Assembly: GCF_019649055.1 (NCBI RefSeq)
Contig: NW_026570268.1
Coordinates: 496,001-560,000 of the forward strand
Source of the DNA: Paramacrobiotus metropolitanus
Taxonomy: Eukaryota; Tardigrada; Eutardigrada; Parachela; Macrobiotidae
Reading direction: 5' to 3'
Length of the DNA: 64,000 nt
Below are positions 918 through 59,184 of the stretch, in pieces. Position 1 is the stretch's first letter; each line of letters starts with the position of its first letter. The notes under the pieces are model-generated. The model saw only the letters and a program-made list of their open reading frames with translations. It was not told the origin of the DNA and ran no database searches. Both the position numbers and the translations under genes were made by a program.

Positions 918-3900
918 ATGGCGTACGCGAGTAACCAGCGCACGGATTACGGACGCCAGTACAGGTGGGTGGAGTGCTGCAGGACGGGGAACAAGCGCAG
1001 CTGCCTCGAAGAGCGGCTGTTTTGGCTGTTGGGGGAGCTCACGGTTTGAGCAGCTGTTGCAGTGTTCGGATGATCGTTTCGTCTTGCTGATCGCCGTTTC
1101 TGGTGCTGTGGCGATTGGTGGCAGTCGATGCAGTAGTGGGTGATCGGCCCGATGTGTGGGGATGACGTTGTGGTTGTTTGCAGCAGCGGGAGCGGCCGCG
1201 GGGGCGCGGGGGGCCCCGCGGGGGACGGGGGCAGTCAGGGGCCGTCGCGGGTCCCCAGCGATCCGCCCTTCTCCGCCTTCGTCGGCAACCTGCACCAGGC
1301 CACCGTCCAGAGCGAAATCGGGGAGATGTTCAATCGCCAGAAGGTACGTTATGTGCACTGCAACACTGAACCCTTCCTGTTTACAGTTTGCCTCGTTTTC
1401 TTCGCTCGGCCTCTGGAGTGTACAGCTCCGTTTCCCACTTTCCTCTAACCGAGCGCCGCCTAAATAGATATATTATTCCGTAAATAAAAAGAAACTAATA
1501 TAAGTAACAAATAAATCCAAGAAATATAATTATATAAATTTAGGTGAGTAATAATTGTATATATATAAATATGGTAAATATCAGAAATGTATTAAAGACG
1601 TGAGCAGGTATTGTGTGATCTGCAGTTATTGTCGAGATGGTGAAGAGAGAAACGCCAGACAGAAGGTGCTTATGTTTAGGTGAAGAATATTCGTATGCTG
1701 TACGAAACGGAGAGCAAAAACTTCCGAGGTGGGTTCGCTGGTGTTCAGATGAGAATAAACTGAACTGTAAGCAGCACTGTACTGTCCACACAGGTGTGGC
1801 CTTTGTGGAATTCGTCGACAAGGAGTCCCTGACGGAGGCGCTGAATCTCGACGGAATGGTAAGATATACTTGAAATTTATTCACCGTACATTATGGCAAC
1901 AAGTAACAACCGCCGCGGCACGAAAAGCGACGTTTATTCATTTGATTTCTTGCTGTGCTGACTGTTAACCGTCTGCGCCCCCCTTTTTCTAGGTGCGTCG
2001 CGGCCGCAACATCCGCGTGGACGTGGCCGACCGCGACCGGTACCGCGACCGCGCCAACCGCTTCAGCAACGACCGCGGCGGCGCAGCGCGCGGACGCGGA
2101 GGTAGGAATGCGGATTACCTCCTAATTGCGGCGAATTGTAGTGCAGTGGCTCCGGTGTGTTGCAGGCAGTCGCGGCGGATATGCGCGCAGCGACGCCGAG
2201 GCCGTGGTGCCGCCGCCCGCGGCCAGTCCGGCCTCCACGGCGTCCACTCCACATTCCCAGCTGAACAGCAGCCAGAACAGCCACAACAGCAACCGCTCCG
2301 TCACGCTGCCCGAGCCTGTGCGTAAATAAATGTCCAATTTTATCCTTTATTCTGAATATTCGTGGTAATTATTTTTGCACGTGTTCTTGCGCAGGTCAAC
2401 GACATGATGAGCAACCCGCGCATTGCGCATCCCTGCATCAAGGCGGTGGTAAGGGCTTAATTACGAATAAATACTAAGAACATCTGAAATGTGAAAAAAA
2501 AACGTGAAAACTTATCTGTACATATTTACGGTTGTATAAATTAGAACATTTCTCCAATAAACAGATTGAAGCAGGCTTTACGGAGAAATGTGTGTTTGTT
2601 CCTTGGCAGGCGTCGGAAGTCGTGGCGGACACAATTACTGGGGTCAGTTTCGAGGGCGTCCTGCAGTCCTTCAACAAAAAGGTGCGTTTTTCGCTTACTT
2701 AATGTGCCAGCATCGTTTAAGGATGCTTGTTTTTTTTTCTGTTGATTTACCATCAGTTACTTAAATTGCATAATCTAAAAGTGTACCTCTGTATTTTAAT
2801 TGTAATAATTTTCATTTATAGTGATTGTGTTATCAGTTATAGAATAATGGTAATTTAATTGTGAGTTTGGTTTTGAAAAACGAATGTGCATCGCGTAGGG
2901 AGATACCGCCCTGGCACAAGCGCATAAAGTGGCCGCCAACCGGCAGCACGTGGAGTTTGTGGATTTTGTGCTGCTGGAGCGGAAGGACCTGGTCAGCATT
3001 ACCGTGCGCGATATCGGGCTGCGTTTCCTGCGCAGCAGCCAGCCGGCGGTGACGCCCGCCAAGCGGCCCGACACCGGTCAGTCGACGCGTGCAATGAACG
3101 GCTTTGGTTTGTAACTAAGCGTTTGTTTTTGCGTTGCAGTGCTGGCGACGGACGAGGCGCTGGCCAAGACGCCGTCCGCTGCTGGCAATCAGTCGGCGCG
3201 TAATCAGCCCAAAGAACTGGTCAAATGGGAGCCCGATAACGATCTGGAGATCCACCATCGCCTTGATCATTTGGTACACCATTCCACTCTCATCATTTGC
3301 ATTGATTTGTTCTTTAATAGCTGAGAATCGTATTTTATTTAAGTAATTTTCGTTTATCGATTTAATTGATTATCGGTGACGATGTGTTATGCGTTTAGGG
3401 CACCGGGTGGAGCGCCGAGGACATGTTCCGTCAGAACGAGCGCAATTTCGGCGTGAAATCCAGCTTCGACCAGTCCATGTCGCAGTACACGTAAGTGTTC
3501 CTAAAAAATAAATTTAAAATTTATAAAAGTTGCAGAATGAATGGTAGATGTATCTAACAAATTAATTTTGAATTGATTTAAAATCACAGCGTCCCGCTGA
3601 CGATCCACGACGGCACGGACGAAGGCCGGCGGAAGATCTCGGAGGCGCAGCGTCTGGCGGACGAGATCGAGCGCCAACCCGACTACCGGCAGCGCGCCAA
3701 CAAGGAGAACGCCGACGAGCACAACGAGGAGGAGCTCTTCAGCGCCGTGGTGCGCCCCGGCGGCGACCGCGACCGCCACCACGACCGCAACAACACCAAC
3801 ACCCACCACGACCGCAACAACGACTTCCGCTCCTCGGCCGGCGCCCGCCACCCCCGACATTCCGCCCGCGGCGCCCACGCCAGCGACAGTATTATCATCA

Positions 3901-6663
3901 CGCGCAACCCCGACATCCAGACCACGCCCTCCTTCCCCGCCCACCGGGAACCGGCGTCCGTGGGGGGTGGGCCGGCGCCGGCGGTGGCGGTGGCGGCCAA
4001 GGAGAAGGTGATGGGTTCGCACGGCACGCAGACCAGCTACAGCGGCGCGATAGCGGCACGCCGCGATAGCAGTGGACGAACGGAGGCGCCGGTGGCGACG
4101 CCGGTGCCGGCCAGTCAGCCGCGCGCGCCGCAGGCGACGTCCGCCGCGTCGCAGCCGAAAATCCGCTCGTTCGATAAGGATTACACGCCGCGCGCCAGTA
4201 CGGAGGGGAAGAGCGGCGTGCAGCGCTCGCCGGACGCCACGCCGCAGCGCAGCCAGACGCAGAATGTCTGGACGCGCTCCAGCAACGCGCCCTCCGTGCC
4301 CAACATCGCCGAGGCCGGCAAATCGGCCATCCGCAAGTCCTCCTGTACGTGTGCAACATATAATGGATTTTTTCTTATTTTTTTAATTTTTTTCTGATTT
4401 TTTGTCGAAATTTATTTGGAATATTCTTAGGTTTTTATTACGATGTCTCTAGTTATTTTAGGATTTTCTAGTTGTAACTTGTGAAGTTTGTTTGGATTTT
4501 TTGGGGATTCTTTTGCGATTTTGATGAAGATATTTTATGATTATTTTTATTGGTTATTTAGTTTTTATATTTTTGTGTGATGACTAATCGGCATGTTTTT
4601 AGCGCCGTCCGAACGGAAGAACGTAAGCGTCCACGATAACCGCCACCACGAGGAGCATAGCAGCGGCGGCGGCAGTAAGCCGGCGCCCAGTCCCGTCTCC
4701 CACCGCAAACAGAAGAGCCCGCACGAGAGCGCCTCGGCGCCGGACAGTAGCAGCGCGAAGCCGCCGCCGGCGGGCGGGCACGTGGACGTGAGCAAGTCGC
4801 AGCTGAACCCCGAGGCCAAGGAGTTCACGCCGCGCCTCCCGGCGCCGCCCCCCGCGCTGCACGTCCCCGCCCACGGCCCCGCCGACTCGCCCTCCCCCGT
4901 CCACGCCGACCTGGCCGGCTACATGCTGAACGCGCCGCCGCCGCAGCAACACCAGCAGCAGCAGCATGCGCAGCAGTTTGTCTACAGTGTCCTGCCGGCT
5001 GGTAAGTCTCCTTCAGTTCAATATTGATTTGTAATCTTATCAGTTGTTTTTTCCCTTATGAACATTAATGATTTATAAATCTGGAATGTATAAATGAATA
5101 AATTTCTTCACATCTGTAAATTATTAATGCCGTAAAAGATTATTAATAATTATTCAATATTCTTCTGTTCAGTTAGATTTTTTCTGGTGCAGGCAGTTTC
5201 CGTGAGATCCCCATGAACGCGTACGCCAACAACGCCGGCAATCCCTACGCGAATTACGCGCTGAACCAGACGTCGCCGGTGGGCAGTCCGGCGCAGATGA
5301 GCGCCATGCACAACGTCTACAGCGCCTCCCTCATCGGCCAGCAGCAAATGGGCGCCCCCATCGCGCAGTTTCCGCCCTCCTCGGTACGCTGTTGTCGGCA
5401 TATAAATTTTGTATTCAAGTTTTTAAATTATTAACCGATCAGTATAGTAATCTGAATTTTTTATTTAAACTACTTAATTTTAAGCGCATGGAATCGACTT
5501 TACGGGAAATTTATTTTTATTCCAGTTTAATTGATTAAACTGCCTATCAGCTGTCGATCAGTTCAAGGAAATAAATTGGATATTTATTTTAAACGGAATA
5601 AATGGAGTAAATTAACCTGGGAATAATTCAGAGTGCAGCGTGATAAAATCAGTTGAATTGCAGCGCGACAACGGCCTACTGCAGATGTACCAGCCAGTCA
5701 GCGCCGCCATGGTGTCGATGCCGCAGCAGCAACAGCCGCAGCGCATGGTCATCGCTCCGCAGGCCAGCTACCAGGAAATCAACCCTTCCTTCTACGGTAT
5801 ACGCGGCATATTTCCCTTAATCTTCACGCAGTGCGGCTAATAATCAGCGGCGTTTGCAGGCTACCAGATGAACATGAACGTGCCCGCCTCGATGTACGCG
5901 CCCATCCTGTACCAGGCGCAGGCGCCCCCGGGCGGCCCCTTCCAGCTGCCGGCCAACGGCGCCGGCTTCCTCATGAGCCACGCCCATCCGGGCCATCCCC
6001 ATCCGCAGCAGCATCCCCAGCAGCAGCCGCAGCACATCCCCGTCAGCGCCGCCATGCAGCAGGTACATTCGCTTTACAATTCAATTAAAAAAGACACTGG
6101 TTGTGTTTTCCTCCCTTCATTTGCAGAAAGTGTAGATTAAATCTAGTTGTCTTTAAAATGGAAATTTAAAAACTTTAAAAGAAAATCCGCTCAGAATATT
6201 CAGATAAAAAACGGAATAAATCAACAGCAAAATTAAAATTACAACAAATTTTGCATATTCAGTGATTTTGGACTACACGTGAAGATTCCATTCCTGAAAC
6301 TTTAAAAAAAATAAATGCACACTGCTTTGCTAAATCATGAATTAATAAACAGTACATAAGCAGCAGCAGTAAATAGTTAAGCAGTAAATAAAAGAATAAA
6401 AATAAATAAATTTGCTCTTCTCAGATACACTTGAAAAATTTAAAAGCAGGATTAATCGGTGGATTTTTATTTGAATTATTGGGAATTTATTTGTAGAAGA
6501 CTGTAATAAAATGTGAAAAATGGTTGTCTGTTTGCAGATGCTGCCGGGTAACTACAATGTCATGATGATGGCCGGCGGGCAGAACGGGCCCCCGGGGGGC
6601 ATGCTGGTGCGCGGGCCCCCGCAGTTGCTGCATCCGCACCATCTGGCCGGTCCGCCGCAGTAG
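918..6663 (+). CDS. ATXN2: Ataxin-2 with an eIF4H-type RRM at its N-terminus
   Basis: Seventeen exons join in phase to 972 codons: 918-964, 1184-1343, 1680-1728, 1794-1858, 1993-2101, 2166-2317, 2395-2448, 2610-2681, 2899-3076, 3140-3273, 3399-3490, 3590-4344, 4603-5001, 5193-5383, 5664-5796, 5860-6062, 6538-6663. Residues 44-125 form an RRM like that of eIF4H (RNP2 AFVGNL, RNP1 FRGVAFVEF). Residues about 205-290 form the Lsm domain and 341-430 the LsmAD domain (GWSAEDMFRQNE). A PAM2 motif near residue 688 (LNPEAKEFTPR) should bind the MLLE domain of poly(A)-binding protein. The rest is low-complexity, rich in Gln, Pro and Ser. Ataxin-2 controls mRNA stability and translation in cytoplasmic RNP granules. 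Known ataxin-2 proteins lack an RRM, so the N-terminus is the odd part: it copies eIF4H exons 1-5 with the same splice phases. The ataxin-2 identity is firm; the join at 2317/2395 needs transcript proof. AATAAA signals lie near 7052 and 7095. Confidence 0.85.
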
Positions 6664-9416: not shown

Positions 9417-12090
9417 TCAAACGGAATCCTGCTCGCTGCCCTTGGACACCTGCCGCTCGACGCCCGCCCCGGGCCCCGCCCCCGCGGCGGCAGCGGCGGC
9501 CGCCTCCTCCTCGGGCTTGGCCTCGCGCGGCTTCCCGCCGCCGAAGATCTGGCGCGTCCGCTCCGACGTCTCCGCCAGCTGGTTCAGCGGCGCGTCCACA
9601 CTGCGCGGCTGCAGCTTGAGCCGGGGCCGGTCAGCGGCGTCCGCTGTACACAAATCACACCGTTATATTTATTCACATTTCTTCCTCAGAATTATTTACT
9701 GTAATTTATCGCGGCTTTTTTATTCTGTATTTTTTACCATTTTTCCATTACCTGACACGGTGTTTTTATTATTATTGTCTTAGGTTTTTCTTTATTTATC
9801 TATTCTGCATTCGTTACGGTAACTTGCGTTTATCTTATAATTTCTACAATTAATTCTTACCGTTTTATATGATTTTTCCTCGATATGATTTCATTGCTAC
9901 TCATTATTTCACTCATTTCACATTCAATAATTCATTTCACATTTTTTCCTTTGTTTATTCGGATCTTAATGATATTTTTTATACCATCCCTTTTTAGGTT
10001 TATTACTGTTATAAATTTATAATACATTTGTTATTCACTAGTACTTATTTAGTATCATTTAATCTTGTTTTTATTTTTTTATTAGCTTATTTTCTATTTT
10101 AGCAGGTTATTAAACTAATCCATCGTATTTTTAACGAATATGTTTCTCGATATTTACCGGGATCCGGCGCCTTGAAGTCCGCATAGGAGTCGGAGTTGTT
10201 CCTCTCGCGGTCGCCGTAGCGTCCGCCTCGCTCGTGCCCGTACGAGCCGCCGCGTCCGCCCTGGTAGTCGCCCTGCCGCCCGCCCCGGTTGCCGTATCCC
10301 CGCCGCTGCCGCGGCGGTCATTGTATCCACCACCCCCGCTGCCGCGGTACTGGTAACCGCCGCCACTGCCGCGGTAGTTATCCGTCTGGTTGTATCCCCC
10401 GCCGCCGCCGCCCCCGTACCCCCGGTCGCCCCCCTCGTAGTGGCTGCCCCCGCCGTAGCCCCCGCGGTCCCGCTCGCCGCCGTAGTAACCCCCGCCGCGG
10501 CCGCCGCGCCCTCCGGAGGAGTACCCGCGGTCGCGGTCATTCCCGCCGCGGGAGTCGTAGTCGCTGTAGTTGGAGTCGGTGCGCGCGTACCCCCCGCGGG
10601 TGCCTGTCAAGAAACAACCGATCAAATTCTCTTGATTCAATTATAATTATTATTCTTCGATTTATTACTGTTTTTTACTGTCTTTTTTTATTACTGTTTT
10701 TCTTTATATTTTTTCACGATTTATTTTTTTATTTTTCTGTTCGAAATTTATTTACGCCTCAACTGGCCGCGTGCCTGTTGCGAAACAACCGATCGAATTC
10801 CGTTTATGCAATTATAAACCATTTTTCTCTGATTTAAAACCGTTTTTCTAACTCATTTTATATTTTTTCACGATTTATTTTTTTGTTTTTCTGTACGATT
10901 TTCTATTTACGCCTCCACTGACCTCCGCGGCCCCCTCGGGGCGCCCCCCGGTCGCCGCCGCGCTCACCGCCGCTGCGGCGGTTGCGGCTCTGGTCGGCCA
11001 CGTCGACGCGGATGTTGCGGCTCTCCAGCACCTGCAAGCAGGCGCAAAGGCTCACTTCCCCTGTAACGCGACAGCTGACGGAGCCCCCTTCCGTGGCTGC
11101 ATACTTACCGCGTTGTTGAGGCTCAGCGCGTCCAGGAGGGATTCCTTGTCGTAGAACTCCACGAAGGCCGTGCCTAACGGAGCGACAACACATTGCAACC
11201 GTATTCTCACGCGGGAACGCGACAGTAGAAAATATGTACTCACCTCTGAACTCGTCCGTCTCTTTATCACGCAGCATCCGTACCGATTTCACCTGCAATA
11301 ACCATTTTTATCACTTCGAAATAACTCACCAAATAATCCTAACATTAAATAAGCCTACGATTAAAACAGCAAAATCACAGAAACAAATTATGATGATTTT
11401 TTAAGGGCAAAATAACTATCAAAAATAATAACAATAATTATATTCAGGAAATATTCCTCAGTAATAAAATGGTAAAAAATAACTGGTGATGAAACTTCAA
11501 CTAAAAATCGCAGTAAAATCGAAAAATTGATTATAACCATTTTTCAAACTGCAAATCCATACCAGAAAATAATAGTAATAATGTATCACATATTTCAATA
11601 ATCCTAATAACGAAAAGAATGCAATCAGATTACCAGGGAATTAAAAATAACGGCTCACCTTGTTGCGGCTGAAGATCTGCTCAATGTCGCTCTGGATGAG
11701 ATTGGTGGGCAGATTGCCCACGAAGGCATTCCACGGCGGCTCCACGGGGATCCGCGACGAGCCGCTCTCCGCCGAGCCCCGTCCGCTGCCGCTGCTGCAA
11801 CCACACACACCGTCAGTTCAACTACCCGCGCAAACGCACCACGATCACCCAGCTGCAACTGCAACACGCTCGCTTCGCTCGTCGCCAGCACCCAGCCCAG
11901 CAGAACCCGTCGAGCAAACGGCTCCCGGGCGCTGCGCCCCCTGCTTTGCCAATGCCGAAGCAGACCGGACAGCAGGCATGCTGGCCCGTAATACAGAGCG
12001 GCCGCAACGGCGCCCCCTCGGCAGACGACCGCCGGGAACCCACCTGTACTGGCGTCCGTACTCGGCTCGCTGGCTACCCGCATACGCCAT
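9417..12090 (-). CDS. EIF4H: Eukaryotic translation initiation factor 4H
   Basis: Seven exons on the minus strand: 12044-12090, 11659-11794, 11244-11292, 11109-11173, 10923-11031, 10158-10603 and 9417-9643. The product of about 359 residues has one RRM at roughly 35-116 (RNP2 AFVGNL, RNP1 FRGTAFVEF), a long RGG/YGG-rich middle and a C-terminus with PLNQLAET and IFGGGKPRE, matching the end of animal eIF4H. eIF4H stimulates the RNA helicase eIF4A, whose gene lies 13 kb away. The family is usually near 250 residues; the extra length is the expanded glycine-rich region. The sixth exon as given is one base short: the RGG frame is lost at the CCCC run 10298-10301 and resumes one frame over, and the last splice phase only works if one base is added. 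This may be an assembly error or a real lesion. An inverted partial copy of this gene heads the ataxin-2 gene. Confidence 0.85.
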
Positions 12091-13342: not shown

Positions 13343-16300
13343 CTAGGAGCCACTGCAAAACAAGCACGTCTCGCATTATTAGAATTTTTTTAAAATTTCC
13401 TTTAATTTTTTCTTCTTGAAAATCAAAATTTGTTCATCCTCACTCTTAAATTTATTTATTACTGAGATTCATTATTCATTTATAATATTCACTGCTTACT
13501 TATTCTATTTTTTTATCATTTTATTTACTACTCAAAGATAAACTAAATAAGGATTAAAGAAAATCAGAGATAAAAACAAGAAAAAATAAACAAAAACCAA
13601 TACGATTAATTGATTAATTCTGTTCCGCAACCCGAATAAGACGGGCTGTAGAAGAAAATTAATAACGTTGTATCTAAATAATCAAGAAAATTTTTTACTG
13701 ATAAATAAGGCAGAATAAATAGAAATGAAATACGAATAAATAAGAACAGCATACTCGTCAGCGTAGGACGGATGAGCGGCGTTCAAGCGCTGGAAGTTGA
13801 GCAAGGAAGGCGGGAGGACGTTGTGGCCCTGGCGCAGTTGCTGCTGCTGCTGTTGCAGCATGAGATAGCGCTGGTGCTCCTCGTCCATGGTGCGCGGCGG
13901 CGGCAGCTGCTGTTGCTGCTGCTGTTGGTGGTGGTAGAGCTGCAGGAAGCCCTCCGCCTCCCGCTCCATGCCCATGACGCCCTCCAGCAGGCCGCCCGCC
14001 CCGGCCGGCGCCGGCGTCGACGACGTGGAGGAGCTGCTGCCCGGCAGGGAGCCGCTGGTGTCGCTGCGCTGCAGCGTCTTCCGCATCACCGCCGTCGGCA
14101 GCAACGGGTTCCCGCTCGACGACGGCCGCACCACGCCGCCCACCGCCGGCCCAGGAATGCTCATCTAAACCCCAAGCAATAATAATTCGTCAATAAAATA
14201 TTAAAACAGAATAAATTTAATAAATACCAAATATCCAATTAAGAATAAAAATGACTAAAGATTTAATTCAATTTTTTACCTGATTGTGCATGCGGCTGTG
14301 GCTGTACTGCTGCTGTTGTTGTAGCTGCTGCTGCTGCTGTTGCAGCTGCATCTGGCGCATCCATTCCTGGCGCTCGGCCAACTGGCGGGAGTGGGCGGCG
14401 TTGCGCTGCTGCTGTTGTTGCTGCTGCTGCTGCCAGAGCAGCATCTCCTGGGGCGGCGGCATGGGGAAGGGCTGGCTGTGCGGGAAGCTGGGATGGGGGT
14501 GGTGTGAGATCAGGTTAGGAGGGAAGTGCGCCGGCGCCACGCCGTGCGCCGCCGCCATCTGGTTCCCGGGGCCGACGCGCACGGGTCCACCTGTCATGAT
14601 AAACACTTCATCAAAACCGCCACAAATTTTCAAAAACAATCATGAAAAATATTCATACATTTTTAAATTTTAAATACGTTTTCTTTCCGATTTTTTAAAT
14701 TTTCAATAAATTTTCCTTAATATCTTATTCATAAGAAGGCTCATTCATAACTGTTTTGTTTTGGAAATAATAAAAGAGCATTTCCGTTGGAAAAATGAAA
14801 AATGAAATTCAATAATTTGTGAATTTCAGTTGTGTTGTTTGCGGCCTTACCGAACGCAATCCGATGAGCAAACCGGTGCATGGGACTCATCGGCGGCGGG
14901 ACGGTGGGCGCGTACTGCGCCGGTCCGGCTCCCGGCGGCATGGAGTTGCCAAAGGGCGAGAAAGAGCGGTGCATCACGGCCGGCGGCGGCGCCGTCTGGA
15001 AGGGCGCCGGGAAGGGTCCTCCCGCCGCGGTCATCCCCGGCGGCGGGGCCCCACCGCCCGGCTTGATCTCCAGCGCCTTCATCAGCGAGTCCTTGCGCTG
15101 CTTCATCTGGATGAGCATGAGCAAGATGCCGTGGTCGAAGTGGCCGCTGTCGCGCATGTGCGTCAGTTCCTGCACCGAGAAGTTGAGCAGCTTGTGCAGA
15201 CTGGGATCGTCGGGGATGGCCAGGTCCGGCGGCAGCGGCGGACTGGGCTGCGGCGGCTGGCTGGGCGGGGACACCGCGGTGAAGGGGGCGTGGAGAGGCT
15301 GCTGGGCGGGGGGCGGCATGAAGCGCGACTGGGTGAGGGGCGGCGGGGGCGCGGCGGACTGCAGCTGCTGTTGGTGTTGCTGCTGCTGCGCCAGCTGGTG
15401 TTCGCGCTCAATGTCCTCCATCGTTTTGAATTTCGGCTGGCTGACGGCGCTGGCGACTGGCACCACTACAACAAAAGAAACAAATTCGGTTAGAATGAAA
15501 TATTCATACAAGACATAAATGGGAGGAATAACAAAGACATTTCAAAATAACATCGCAACAAATAAATTACCAACTGAATTTAATCCGCTTAATATTAATT
15601 TCGTTTAAAATAAACAAAATGGTATTCAATGGTAAATATTCAAAATTTAGTGCTTATTAATTAGAAAAATTCACATACGATCACTAATTACTTTAACAAA
15701 AAATTCAACTGATTATATTCCAACCTTGCGCTTTACGCTGGAGCATCTGTAGTAAATTCCGCCCGGCCTCCTGCGGATCCATCCCGAAGACGGCCTCCTG
15801 TTGCGGCGAGTATCCCGGCGCCGACGCTTCCGCCTGTGAACGCTCCGAAGACACGTCCAAGCCGGAGAACAACGCGCTGAAACGGCTCCCGCCCGCGGCA
15901 TTGGCATTCCGATCCTGCAATATCAAGATTTAGACACAACCAAGGATATCACTGAAAAACGACTGACCTCGATGACAGGCGGCGACTCCGCTTTGACGGC
16001 CTTCGTTTCCGGCGGCGCGGGCTTTTTAACGACGTTCTCCACGGAGGTCGTCTTCTCCGGAGCCTCCTTGTGCGTCTCCTCGTCTTTAGCGTCGTCGGTC
16101 CCGCGCAAATCATCATCAAAGCCCTTCAGCTCCATAATATCGTGCCGACTGCTCGGCCCGTCCTCCATCCACGCCGGTTCGTCTTCATCCGAGTGCTCGA
16201 GATAGTACGGCGACTCTTCTTGCTTATCGCCGTGATCTGCAAGAAAAAGGCTACGGTTTCGGCTGTTTAGTTCAATGAAAGCGCAGTCTTACTGGATGGA

Positions 16301-41200: not shown

Positions 41201-44200
41201 TTTCGACGCTCGCACCATCAGGGTGCTGTTGCCGCTGTCGGTGTGCCAGTTGACGGAGACGATGTCGTTTCTATCAAAATAACGACACGCGTGGTCATAC
41301 CGTCAAAAGTGAAAATATACATAATTTTAAAATAAATCCTAATCTTTTGTACAAAACAAAAAATCAAATTTTTTTAAAGACACATCGCCAGTTGATTTTC
41401 AGTTGGGTTTTACACGTTCACGTAAAAATTGCTGTTGCCTTGTAACGGCGTGTTCTTTAAATGAAAAGTTTCCTGTTAATTCGCAGTTTCTCTTAAACAT
41501 TACAGAAATTCCAGCCAATTCTGGCGACTACGAGTCGGAATTTCATTGGTGACGGTGGTACTTACCGACTGGTGCGGAATTGCAGTCGGCTGAAGACCGC
41601 GTGAAATTCCCGACCCAGATTATCGTGATGGGTCACGCCAAAGCGCAGTGGAATGCCTAGCGGGATGTGCGCCACTTCCGGGCCGCTGCGCAGCGCGCTA
41701 TCCACGTTGATCTTAATAAAAGACGGTTCGTTGACCTGTAACAAGCGCGCTGCGTTAGTGTTTTAAACGACAAGCGGGAAGTTTCATTTAGATTTGAAAT
41801 TACCAATTTAAGTGACAAATTAAAAATAAAATCATCTTTCCAAATTAATTAAAACCAACTTTTCACCCACGCTGTTTTAAAGTTTCAACATATCAGAAGG
41901 AATCAAATTTTTTTCTCCTAAATTTCCTTTATGAAAATAAAATTCCACAAAATTTTCAGTTCCCGAATGCAACAAATTAAAACGAAAATCACCCAATAAA
42001 ACTAGATTAAATTAAATTAGCTGTAGTTTTTAAATACAAAATTACCTGCACGCCCCGCACTATCCGCGTCCGCTGCTCCTTCTCGCTAACGTCCACAACC
42101 AGCATCGCCCGCCCGGACTGCGCTCCGCTCTGAATATGTCCACCGGCCTCCACACCGACCACATCAGCTCCCTCCAGGACGCGGTAGGTCAGCTGCGCGC
42201 TGCCGTCCTTGTTGGTGCGCAGCTTCAGGCGGGCGTTGGGCGTCATGAGCAGGTTGTCGCAGTTGCACGCGGGCACCAGCAGCTGCGCCTCCTCCACCAC
42301 CGCTACGACTAAAGAGTCCTTGAACATCTTCCCGACGGGATCGGTGGCGGACAGGGACACGGTGACGGCGCCGGACGATCGCCCGACCAGTCGCATGGCA
42401 ATGTTGTTATCCTCCAGCACCGCCAAGCCCAGGGAATGGTAGACTGACTGGAGGCCGGCACTTTCCGGATTGTCGATGGACCACACGAATTTGTACATCG
42501 GCATCGTTGAGCCTGCAATTTAAGCCATCGAAATTTAATTTTATAATTCAAAAAACTGCCATTTTACAGTAAATATTTTTGAAAGAAATTGACCGGATAA
42601 TTTAAAACACTTTATTCGTAATTATGTTTAAAAATTTAATAATGTTTAAATTCCTTATCCCATACTATTGAAACTTTATACATACTTGTACATAGCAACG
42701 GAATATAAATATTCGAAAAACATATTTATTAACTAATTTCCGCACCGAACGTGAACGGCGTCTCCTGGTCTGTGAGACCGAACGCCACCAATGGCATTTC
42801 CTGGCCGACGGCGATGCTGCGGAGGGGAGCGCGGATGCGGACGCCCTTGAAGGGCACCACGTGGATAGTAACTTCATCTGAGGAATAGACCACGTCCTTC
42901 CCGGTCACGGGGTCGACGTCAACAATCTCTCCATAGATCTGCGTGTTGCCGGTACTGAGCGCCTCCACGATGCCCCCGCCGTCCACCGCGGCCAGTTTCG
43001 CCGAGCGCACGGCAAAGCGCAGAGAGTTCAACGGCTGTGGACCGCCTTCGATCGTCAGTTGCAGGCGCGCTTTCGGGATCATGGTGATATTGCGGGGCTC
43101 AATGTGCAGCGGCGGGAAAACCTGGCAAATCAATGTAATTTATTTTAAATTACCATACATTTAATTTACACTTTATTAATATTTATTTAAATTCTACTAA
43201 TTTAAAAACAGCATAATCGGATGCCCAATCAAATTGAGAAAACAAATAAACGTAATTAATTTTAAAATTAACATACATTTAATTTACACTTTGTTAATAT
43301 TTATTTAAATTCTACTAATTTAAAAACAGCATAATCGGATGCCCAATCAAATTGAGAAAACAAATATACGTAATTAATTTTAAATTAACATACATTTAAT
43401 TTACACTTTATTAATATTAATTCAATTTCTATTAATTTAAAATCAGAATAATCAGATGCCCAATGAAATTGAGAAAACAAGAGAACGCAAATGCAGTGTG
43501 CACCTGGATTTCCACGGAGTTACTGTGGATGTCAGCGGCCATGCCCTTCGTGCCTTTGAAGGCCACGCCGGCGCGACCGACGGCGTTGCCGTGGACGGAA
43601 TACAGGCGTTCAGTGGGGGAGTCGGTGGCTTCTTCACGCAGCGCCACCACGTTAGCGGTGTTGACGGGAACGATCTTGAGTAAGGGGAAGAGATCCACGG
43701 GGATGCGTTGGCCGGCGGAATCGTAGGCGCGCAGCAGCAGCGCGATGGAGCTGCCCAGCTGCACCTTGTCACCGGCGATCACTTCAATGCGAGCCAAGCC
43801 TGCAAAGAACAGTCCAAAAATTAAAGAATATTTATTCAAAATTACTGCACTTTTAATTAAGGAACGCAGTCATACTTTGAAAAATTACAATCTTCAACGA
43901 GATACTTTTAACAATAACTGCAAGATATATTTACGCGGATGTATGGAGAATTTTATGAGCAACGTACCAGCCACGGTGACGAATAGAACAGCCGGCTTGC
44001 CCGGCACACACAAATCATACGCCGTCAGGGAAAAATCTCCGTCCAGCAGCGGCCCGATGGCCACACTGCGGCTCTTCACATCGTAGTTAATCCGCGCCAA
44101 ATCCGGATTACTGGACACCAGGTGGAAATACCCCGAACCCTCCTTGATCCGCGTGCTCTCCTCGCGCCCGGGATAGTTAAACACGGTCAACTGGTCCTGC

Positions 44201-47200
44201 GGGAAGCGCGCCGGCTCCACCAGCGCCAACTCCACCGCCGCCGTCAGCGCCCGCGGCAGCGCACTGGACTCCGGGCTCTTCACGGCGTGCAGGGCGTCAC
44301 GGTGGTAGTGGTCGACGTGCACCGTCAGCGTCACCTTCCCGGCGGCGTCCAGCACGTGGACGGTCTTGTATCCCGCGGCGGCGTCGACGTGCTTGCGCTG
44401 TCCGTGCCAGAGCACCCGAATCCCGTGGGGATCTTTCAAGTCAAGGAGGTGTTTATCCGACACCTCCCAGGTGAAATGCAAGGAGCTGAAGTTGTCCAGT
44501 TTCCGGCCGAGCGAATCGAACACGTCGATGTCGATGATGGCGTCCTGTCCGCGGAGAACCGGGTAGGCGTCATTAGAGCGTTTGCGCCAGGGGCACGGCG
44601 GGAGTTTCTGCCCGGCGATGGGCTGGGGGCGGACACGGAGGATCAGTTGGGCCGGGTGGACGCAGCTGACGCGCCCGATGAGGCGGGTTTTGACCGGCAG
44701 CGGGAGGGTGGTCGAGGGGGCGTTGGCGATCTCCAGCGTCACGCTGTCGTCGCCGATTTTGCTGCACGTCAATTCCAGTAAGGTTACGGCGTCCGTCCCG
44801 CGGAGGGTCTGCGCGCGGACAATGCGGGCGCCGTCCTCACCTGCAAAATAGTCGTCTTTCAACACCAGCGAAGTCTTGCGTTATTTCATTGGAAAAATAC
44901 TGGTTACACTGTGTTATTTGCATAATTTACACACTAATAAGTAAAGATTATTTAATTCACGCCTTTTAAAACTTAATTTATAAACTACAAAGTATTAGCT
45001 ATTTCAAAACATTGCTCAAATCAATAAAAATGTGATAGTCTTCCTTAAAACTCCAATTTGAAAATCGAAAAAGTTGAAAAACTTGCATCAACTACTCGAA
45101 AAATAATAAATTTCTTAATTAAAAAAAATAAATTCATTAACTTCTGCGTTGAATATTTGAAAATATGTTATTATTAAATACAGTACATAAAACATGTACT
45201 GAATACACTCCGGGCAAGATCCAAAGTTTGTCTTACTGGCGGTGATGCGGTGATGTTCGGGATCGCGGATCCATGGCAAGGGTCCTCCACGGAATTGCAG
45301 AACGCGGCTGCTGCCGATGGCCAGCACCACCTCCTTCTCCCCGTCCACCGCTTCCATGGCATCGAACGCGCCGACCGTCGCCTCCGCACTGATCACCTCC
45401 TCTCCGGACACGTACGTCACCTTCACCGTGGAGAAACCAGCTTTCAGTGCTTTCAGGTAGACCGCGCTGCAGGCATCAGCCGACAGCTCCGGCTGGTTGG
45501 CACGTTCGATCCCAAAGACCTCTTCATCGCCCACCGACACACTGAGATTCAGGTGCCGACAATCCGTGAAGACCACCGGGGAAGCTTGTCCGGGGATGCG
45601 GCCGCGCAGAGCGACGGGAACGGCAAGAATATGACCGACTTCGGCTTCCCGTACCGCCGGGGGAAGAATCATATCGCTGACCGGGAGGATGTAGATGTTG
45701 GCGCTGTCGGAATGATCGTTATTGCGGACATCGTACGCGGTGACGACGGTATGCCCGTCTTTCATCCCAGAGGTGAGGCGTCCGGAGGAGGCGTCCACTT
45801 GGCACACGCTGCCGTCGCCGGTGGACCACGTGAAGGTGCCGCTGCCTCCGCTGGCCTGCAGTTGCATAGAATAGCTCCGTTTCGCGTCCCGGGAAGTCGC
45901 GTCCGAGGGGAAGAGCACCAGCGACGGACGGACGACGACCGGCGCATTAATTTCCACCGTCTGCACCTGAAAAAGGAAGAAGAGGTTAAATTTTAAAAAA
46001 AGCACGATTTTTTAAATTTCATTTGTGATTTTGTTTTAATTTATTCGAATTCCATTAAATTTAGTAGATCGATTTACGCAATAACGTTTTCATTTCAGCT
46101 TTTTTTATTTAATTTTTGAATATTTATTTAATAAAATTAAAACTTCTGCACCATTTTGAGATCGAATATAAACCGGATTAACCAGTTTCTAGCAGTGCAG
46201 GCTTACTTCAAAATAAACTGGGTATTATTAACAAATAGAAACCGAATATTTTAAATAACTGCCTTCCAAGAATTTTTTTGCACGATTAATTTTTTAGAAA
46301 TTTACCTTGGTAATGGCATTGGGAAAGCGGTGCAGCTGCCCGTTCTTCTGCACTACACCCAGCAACTGCGCCGTAATCTGCGTCTTGCCGGTCTTGATGG
46401 TTTTAACGTGACTGATGGTGCCGTTCTGCGCCGTGCGGATTACTTGGAAGAACAGCGGGTCCACTTGCAGTTCGATCCGCAGGTTGTCGCTGGGGAATAT
46501 CAGGTGGCTTTCGCGGTCATACAGCTCCGCGATGAAGTCATATTCGCGGAGATTCTGCAGCACCCACACGCGGCCGGGTTTCACCAACAAGTTCAGGTAA
46601 GCGGGCAGGACCACGTGGATGAGGGAGGACGGGTGCGCCGTGTCGCCTTCGATGACGTTGCGGTCTTTCAAGCGGACCTAGTACAACATACGCAGTGAAA
46701 TATTTTTGACAAATTCAAGCCGCATATTTTTTAATTTTATTTCCATTGTTGTGTAACCGGTTAACGGAATTTCCTGTTTCAAATTTTATTACAGTAATTA
46801 ATTTCCAATCAAAAGTGTTTCTCTATCGTTTCGTTTCTCTTTAAAGGATTGGAATAATGTTTAAGTCACGCTGATACCTGCAATCAAAAATATTAAATAA
46901 CTATAATTTCAAGAATTATTTCTAATTAATCTGGAAATTTTAACTGGCAACTTTAATTAAAAAGTGAACTGAATCTCGACCCACCTCGGTGTTGCCCAGT
47001 TCGGTGCAGGCGACAATGGAGTGCTTCTCATCCAGACTGCAGACGCCGTCATCCCGTAGCTGTAGCTGATACTGCGGCGACGGCATCGGAATATACGACG
47101 TGGTGGACTGTTTAATCTGCATCACCCGGTAATGCACGCTGCCCTGTGGTATTAAGTATACATCGTAGTCCGGCTGCAGGACGACGTTGGCCACCACCAG

Positions 47201-58274: not shown

Positions 58275-58365
58275 ATGGCGTGAAGATAGTTAATCGGACT
58301 CGTACTGACTGGAGAGACAGAGAGAGTAGTGAGAAAGTAACGGCCCAAGTGCGGAAGGAAGTAGA

Positions 58366-59184
58366 ATGCCGCAGAATGGAAGTCTTCCGAGAGAAACCTT
58401 AAATGCGACGGGAGAAACACTGGTAGGCGTACCGGGACAACAGCTGCTGAGGATAACGCAGTTCGACCCTGACAGTGATGAATGGCCATACTGGAAGAAA
58501 CGCCTGAAGAACCATTTGTTTCTAACGAAAGTACCGAACGCAATGCAGTCTTCATTTCTGCTGGATTCGTTGTGCCCGAAGTCGTTCACACTTCTTTGCA
58601 AAATGTGCAAGCCGAAAGAACCGATGCAAATGCCAATTAAGGAACTCTATGAAATGCTGGACGCGGCATACCAGGAGTCGACCTTTTGGATAGCACAGCG
58701 AATTAAATTCTTCAGTGCGAAGCAGAAGACAGAGGAAACGCTGGTACAGTTTGCCAGCGAACTCAGGAGTAAGGTGGAACACTGCGACTTCCCAGAAGAC
58801 GAACAAGAGAAAAGCCTGATTGCTGTGTTTGTAATGGGAATGAAGGATGCAGTGACGAGAAAGGTCATGAGTCTAAAAGACTTCAAGACACTGAATGAAG
58901 CTTTAAAGGAAGCTAAAGAGAACGAAACGAAGAGAAAGGAATTAGGAATTGGAATTGAAAGTGAATCGGATCATGAAGTGAAGAAAGTCCGCAAATGGAA
59001 AGGAAAGAAAGGAATGAAAGGAAAGAGAGATCAGAGTCACGATAAAGATGAATGTTACCGCTGTGGTAAGTCAAACCACACGTCTAATGAATGCTTTTTC
59101 AAGGAGAAGGATGCTTCAATTGTGGTCAAAGAAGACATACAGCCCGAATGTGTTCAAACATTGGAAACAAGTACGTCACGGTAG
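58366..59184 (+). CDS. gag: Gag-like protein of the LTR element
   Basis: A single uninterrupted frame encodes 272 residues. The first 190 resemble retrotransposon Gag capsid domains of the Ty3/Gypsy type: FDPDSDEWPYWKKRLKNH, then an alpha-helical stretch with QKTEETLVQFASELRSKVEHCDF and FVMGMKD. A Lys-rich linker (GKKGMKGKRD) precedes one CCHC zinc knuckle at 230-243 (CYRCGKSNHTSNEC, spacing C-X2-C-X4-H-X4-C), which should bind RNA. There is no enzyme domain and no frameshift to one. The intact frame implies either youth or selection. It is not a host gene by context, being bounded by LTRs. Confidence 0.88.
   Translation: MPQNGSLPRETLNATGETLVGVPGQQLLRITQFDPDSDEWPYWKKRLKNHLFLTKVPNAMQSSFLLDSLCPKSFTLLCKMCKPKEPMQMPIKELYEMLDAAYQESTFWIAQRIKFFSAKQKTEETLVQFASELRSKVEHCDFPEDEQEKSLIAVFVMGMKDAVTRKVMSLKDFKTLNEALKEAKENETKRKELGIGIESESDHEVKKVRKWKGKKGMKGKRDQSHDKDECYRCGKSNHTSNECFFKEKDASIVVKEDIQPECVQTLETSTSR

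Follow-up and report, generated by a model that had tools for sequence, protein, structure and literature searches.

A 64,000-nucleotide stretch of the Paramacrobiotus metropolitanus genome (C48:496001-560000; hereafter, the window) contains a plus-strand locus that is best modeled as one chimeric gene, in which the 5' exons of an eIF4H-like gene precede ataxin-2. This model, predicted from the DNA, is in our assessment probably correct. The 17 exons, when joined over 918-6663, form one open frame of 972 codons followed by TAG, as an earlier note on this DNA had proposed, and 16 of the 16 introns have GT-AG boundaries (Table 1).

Table 1. Predicted exons of the chimeric gene and of the neighboring eIF4H paralogue (positions in the window)
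Feature	Coordinates	Strand	Content
Exons 1-5	918-964, 1184-1343, 1680-1728, 1794-1858, 1993-2101	+	Start codon, Gly/Arg/Ser-rich N-terminus, eIF4H-type RRM
Exon 6, apparently hybrid	2166-2317	+	Approximately the first 32 bases match eIF4H exon 6
Intron 6, junction, 77 bases	2318-2394	+	In-frame TAA at 2327-2329; AATAAA at 2325-2330
Exons 7-9	2395-2448, 2610-2681, 2899-3076	+	Ataxin-2 Lsm (SM-ATX) region
Exons 10-12	3140-3273, 3399-3490, 3590-4344	+	LsmAD and the region after it
Exons 13-17	4603-5001, 5193-5383, 5664-5796, 5860-6062, 6538-6663	+	PAM2, Gln/Pro/Met-rich C-terminal region, stop codon TAG
eIF4H paralogue with a canonical C-terminus	12090-9417	-	Located by genome searches with eIF4H
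Exons of the paralogue	12090-12044, 11794-11659, 11292-11244, 11173-11109, 11031-10923, 10603-10158, 9643-9417	-	The last exon ends in TGA

The assignment of the two parts of the 972-residue model protein, an eIF4H-type RRM upstream and ataxin-2 downstream, agrees with the earlier note and is supported by Pfam matches over the respective cut-offs to RRM_1 (residues 48-115, E 1.1e-10), LsmAD (residues 357-426, E 1.6e-10, 41.7 bits against a cut-off of 25) and PAM2 (residues 685-700, E 3.6e-6, 26.7 bits against a cut-off of 20), the PAM2 motif being SQLNPEAKEFTP. For SM-ATX, the match at residues 214-272 scores 18.4 bits in the full-length model and 23.5 bits in a scan of that region by itself, in both cases below the Pfam cut-off of 29.8, which weakens the case for the chimera; according to excerpts of a survey of ataxin-2 proteins, the Lsm frequently goes unrecognized in this family (PMC12898128). 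Among solved structures, the fused RRM is best matched by eIF4H (2dng, 4.3e-15), with eIF4B next (4.5e-10). A search of the PDB with the Lsm-LsmAD region yielded no match at E values up to 1, and PAM2 retrieved two designed proteins first and the Paip2 peptide 1jgn third (E 0.23). In the genome of 169.8 Mb and 533 contigs, LsmAD matched at a single place, in a search in which the controls were silent and a match could have been missed; subject to the same reservation, 918-6663 is the sole ataxin-2 locus that we detected.

The putative source of the RRM is represented nearby. The start codons of the two inverted eIF4H copies are separated by approximately 11 kb, and the minus-strand paralogue contains an RRM_1 domain (E 8.2e-15) and ends with an eIF4H-like C-terminus, RPRLKLQPRSVDAPLNQ...IFGGGKPREA. 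We liken this C-terminus, of the RPRLxLxPR type, to the conserved C-terminal region of eIF4H. In a six-frame scan of the window, the motif of this type occurs once, at 9629 on the minus strand, and was not found in the fusion gene. Exon 6 of the paralogue contains one frame break near 10305, in a G-rich run of this Gly-rich exon, and exon 7 fits the frame downstream of the break, which is likely to be a sequencing or assembly error or, less probably, a real lesion.

Exons 1, 3, 4 and 5 are of the same length in the fused copy and in the paralogue (47, 49, 65 and 109 bases, respectively), with exon 2 differing (160 vs 136 bases), and the residues encoded by exons 1-5 and the first part of exon 6 are identical at 85 of 150 positions (57%). 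At the DNA level, blastn aligned 918-970, that is, exon 1 with 6 donor bases, at 87% identity; the introns of the two copies show little similarity, and the DNA upstream of the start codons gave no significant match between them. The fused RRM is closer to the local paralogue (46/80 identical residues) than to human eIF4H (30/79) or eIF4B (28/79), which favors its origin from eIF4H, and the paralogue RRM is more similar to human eIF4H (38/79) than the fused RRM is. The RNP1 motif reads RGVAFVEF in the fusion, RGTAFVEF in the paralogue and KGFCYVEF in human eIF4H, so that the aromatic residue at position 3 is lost in the fusion, where it is V, and in the paralogue alike. For the eIF4H pair, Nei-Gojobori counts with the Jukes-Cantor correction give a dN of 0.38 and a dS of 0.69; the synonymous sites differ more (Fisher p of 0.005, and 0.047 for the RRM alone, on rounded counts), a contrast that modestly suggests constraint, which might act on either copy.

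The end of the homology between the two copies falls within exon 6. The last DNA match (blastn, 2163-2197, 80% identity, E 0.015) extends 32 bases into this exon, where the matching residues are GSRGGYARSD in the fused copy and GTRGGYARTD in the paralogue. When the whole of exon 6 was compared with eIF4H, the best local alignment reached approximately 2250 with one gap, but 2198-2317 taken alone (about 40 codons) shows no significant homology to eIF4H, its score being equaled or exceeded in 48 of 200 shuffles, so that the position of the predicted breakpoint within exon 6 is uncertain. The tail of the exon looks coding-like in the frame in which it joins ataxin-2: by a coding model for which exons 8-17 of the fusion gene served as the training set, it scores 1.75 bits per codon over introns with a GC3 of 0.88, compared to -0.21 and 0.98 bits per codon and GC3 of 0.60 and 0.62 in the other two frames. 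The Ser/Asn/Gln-rich stretch in this exon may be the former N-terminus of ataxin-2.

The chimera hinges on the junction of exons 6 and 7. Without splicing, the frame past 2317 stops after 197 residues at TAA 2327-2329, which is overlapped by AATAAA 2325-2330, so that the fused frame depends wholly on the splicing of the 77-base intron 6. The phase 0 joining of 2166-2317 to 2395-2448 that the earlier note had put forward withstands scrutiny as a prediction from sequence, given that the boundaries are GT-AG and the strong sites unique: 2317 is the only donor above 5 bits in 2166-2394 (the next, at 2364, has 4.5 bits), 2395 is the only acceptor above 2 bits in 2320-2609, and the phase at 2317 matches that of exon 7, an agreement expected by chance in one case out of three. 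Ranked among the 22 introns of the fusion and paralogue models, with a site model built from those same inferred introns, the acceptor (9.68 bits) is 8th and the donor (5.81 bits) 18th. On the plus strand of the window, 4.3% of the 3569 GT dinucleotides score at least as high as the 2317 donor and 1.0% of the 3138 AG dinucleotides at least as high as the 2395 acceptor. A scan for bacterial-type promoters, which is not meaningful for an animal, placed one site on the minus strand at the junction.

The modest rank of the donor, the ATG codons ahead of the Lsm and the presence of a stop codon together with AATAAA in intron 6 weaken the chimeric model, and two other readings of the locus draw on these same features. 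Under one of them, which we consider quite unlikely, the locus comprises two genes side by side, an eIF4H duplicate cut short at the TAA and an ataxin-2 gene that starts from ATG 2404 and relies on its own internal promoter or on internal initiation. The stop codon located 9 bases past 2317 with its overlapping AATAAA, as well as the two ATG codons, 2404 and 2407, directly before the Lsm, a position described as an ancient start of ataxin-2 (excerpts of PMC12898128), favor this arrangement. However, only 74 bases would separate the stop codon from ATG 2404, compared with an average of about 6.8 kb per gene in Paramacrobiotus sp. TYO, whose 170 Mb contain 24,903 genes (PMC8277472), and exon 6 would become a terminal exon that lacks the canonical eIF4H C-terminus. 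This short gap, the single strong donor and single strong acceptor that share the same phase, and the coding-like tail of exon 6 favor one gene. The other reading is that one locus has two outputs, with the splicing of intron 6 giving the fusion, and intron retention or intronic polyadenylation giving a 197-residue RRM protein that ends with PVRK, so that RNA processing would determine the balance between free RRM and RRM-ataxin-2. This scheme is compatible with the chimeric gene and, although unlikely, is the least so among the alternatives; the location of the stop codon and AATAAA at the very start of a short intron with a low-ranking donor fits it, but 8 of the fusion gene's 16 introns, intron 6 among them, contain AATAAA or ATTAAA, so that this signal does not stand out. 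An RRM-less ataxin-2 initiated at ATG 2404 or 2407, or a short RRM-only product, is possible.

The short spacing on the same strand and the acceptor just ahead of ATG 2404 would also suit an operon, in which a spliced leader added by trans-splicing at the 2395 acceptor would yield a separate ataxin-2 mRNA. A sentence of PMC7854359 that mentions trans-splicing and operons lists tardigrades together with nematodes and appendicularians; of the three references behind it, those available concern Oikopleura, nematodes and metazoans at large. Among the papers listed by the literature search, none dealt with tardigrade spliced leaders, and the H. dujardini/R. varieornatus genome paper contains 0 occurrences of operon or spliced leader; an Rfam search of the genome for SL1 RNA gave no match and, given that the controls were likewise silent, is uninformative. 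We regard the operon as highly improbable. Least probable of all is an assembly artefact that joined two loci: the likely source assembly combined Nanopore and Illumina reads (PMC8277472), and the adjacent eIF4H gene has the frame break in a G-rich run, but the window contains no N, the eIF4H and ataxin-2 parts are 77 bases apart, and the fused copy has remained intact while differing from the paralogue in sequence.

For the favored single chimeric gene, the best reading of its origin is that an inverted partial duplication of eIF4H supplied ataxin-2 with a start codon and an RRM, as the nearby paralogue suggests. Exons 1-5 of eIF4H, with the beginning of exon 6, are present as two inverted copies, of which the plus-strand one would have been fused, inside exon 6, onto the 5' side of the ataxin-2 locus. 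The plus-strand copy would be the derived one because it has lost the C-terminus and is more distant from human eIF4H. Transcription would begin ahead of 918, possibly at a promoter copied from eIF4H, although the lack of an upstream match between the two copies leaves promoter capture unsupported, and splicing of 2317 to 2395 would then produce the 972-residue RRM-Lsm-LsmAD-PAM2 protein. We tentatively extend this scenario to a proposal that has somewhat less than an even chance of being right, namely, that every ataxin-2 molecule in this tardigrade lineage bears an eIF4H RRM, since the sole ataxin-2 gene captured the first exons and presumably the promoter of eIF4H, resulting in a PABP-tethered RRM protein whose expression follows that of a translation factor and for which intron 6 may act as a switch to the free RRM.

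The genome was searched with two queries, human eIF4H (11 matches) and the fused RRM (9 matches), which together pointed to 11 distinct places outside the window. At the 8 of these that were inspected (L003, L004-L008, L010 and L018; the other three are C11, C62 and C39), no third eIF4H was seen, with the proviso that human eIF4H as query recovered a single exon of the paralogue and no exon of the fusion, so that a third copy interrupted by introns might escape detection. The eight inspected matches resemble, as we read them, proteins of the CstF64, PUF60, RBMX2, RBM39, U2AF2, RBM42, RBM28 and SR-protein types. A search of genome contigs for relatives, with the LsmAD region as query, produced 588 pattern matches, 0 of which were confirmed. 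In the genome of the window, a CAHS query gave 18 matches, the highest identity being 73%; CAHS proteins are specific to eutardigrades. Upstream of the fusion gene, a 114-base stretch (636-749) has a copy with 85% identity 4 kb further upstream (C48:492554-492666), the one other copy in the genome search, and the pair appears to represent a second local duplication. Divergent from the fusion gene, the minus strand of C48:490001-496000 encodes biotin carboxylase-type exons that, by our reading, belong to an acetyl-CoA carboxylase gene. Elsewhere in the window, we observed exons with NUP210 Ig-like domains 6, 7 and 9 over the Pfam cut-offs in one or another frame (43894-46011, minus strand), Gln/Pro-rich open frames with no Pfam match over cut-off (13682-15541, minus strand), and an open frame of 283 codons, probably of a retroelement, in which zinc-knuckle and gag-like matches stay below threshold (58333-59184, plus strand).

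The predicted protein shares with the ataxin-2 family (ATXN2/ATXN2L, Drosophila Atx2 and plant CID3/CID4) LsmAD followed by PAM2, with a candidate Lsm-like region placed before them as in the family, and a Gln/Pro-rich C-terminal region, but differs in having the eIF4H-type RRM in frame before the Lsm and a diverged Lsm that falls below the Pfam cut-off. With eIF4H and its paralogue eIF4B, it has in common a homologous N-terminus and RRM, but it lacks the Gly-rich middle and the RPRLxLxPR...IFGGxKPRE-type C-terminus of eIF4H and runs on into ataxin-2. The statement in the earlier note that ataxin-2 in known animals contains no RRM is not strictly right: in the excerpts of PMC12898128, predicted ataxin-2 chimeras are reported in about 5% of lower species, two of them with an RRM, namely, that of Coemansia with a C-terminal RRM and that of Pituophis, an animal, with an N-terminal RRM-bearing BRAP2. 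Those chimeras, which likewise add an RRM to an ataxin-2 core, are attributed there to neighboring genes, probably through read-through, with artefacts admitted as possible; unlike them, the present model contains a partial eIF4H paralogue of which a fuller copy still lies nearby. The main text of that survey has 0 occurrences of eIF4H or tardigrades. Plant CID class D proteins also combine a PABP-binding PAM2 with RRMs, two in their case, and are described apart from CID class B, which carries Lsm and LsmAD (excerpts of PMC4574140); the likeness is one of domain descriptions. In the titles and abstract openings listed on ataxin-2, eIF4H and tardigrade fusions or chimeric genes, an eIF4H-ataxin-2 fusion is not named, and 'gene fusion' occurs once in PMC5531438, within a reference title. 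Thus, predicted ataxin-2 chimeras with an extra RRM are already in print, and eIF4H as the partner would be new, as far as the literature search shows.

As to function, PAM2 would tether the fusion protein to poly(A)-binding protein, and Lsm and LsmAD would engage the usual partners of ataxin-2, as they do elsewhere in the family. With PAM2 and LsmAD intact by profile, the binding of PABP and of ataxin-2 partners is to be expected. The RRM would add an RNA contact in cis, lengthening the dwell time on mRNA and favoring the assembly of mRNPs or granules. Both eIF4B and eIF4H bind RNA via the RRM and stimulate eIF4A partly by holding single strands (excerpt of PMC3434475), but the absence of the eIF4H C-terminus from the fusion makes direct stimulation of eIF4A less likely. 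An eIF4A-cofactor role of the fused RRM, together with a bridge between the 5' and 3' ends of mRNA, is speculative, given the missing C-terminal region and the V at the aromatic position of RNP1. By residue count, RNP1 position 3 appears equivalent to F139 of eIF4B, the replacement of which by Ala reduced RNA clustering and helicase activity (excerpt of PMC13232145). A link between the two proteins has been reported in an animal model, apparently flies, in which eIF4H affects the toxicity of CAG-encoded ataxin-2 (excerpt of PMC11263328).

Ataxin-2 is a conserved regulator of mRNA with links to PABP and stress granules and to neurodegeneration in humans. With a fuller eIF4H gene nearby, duplication and joining become a concrete way in which an ataxin-2 chimera could arise, as opposed to the read-through favored in the survey. 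If true, a fusion of this kind would be a natural experiment, in a stress-tolerant animal, on what follows when ataxin-2 gains an RRM of its own.
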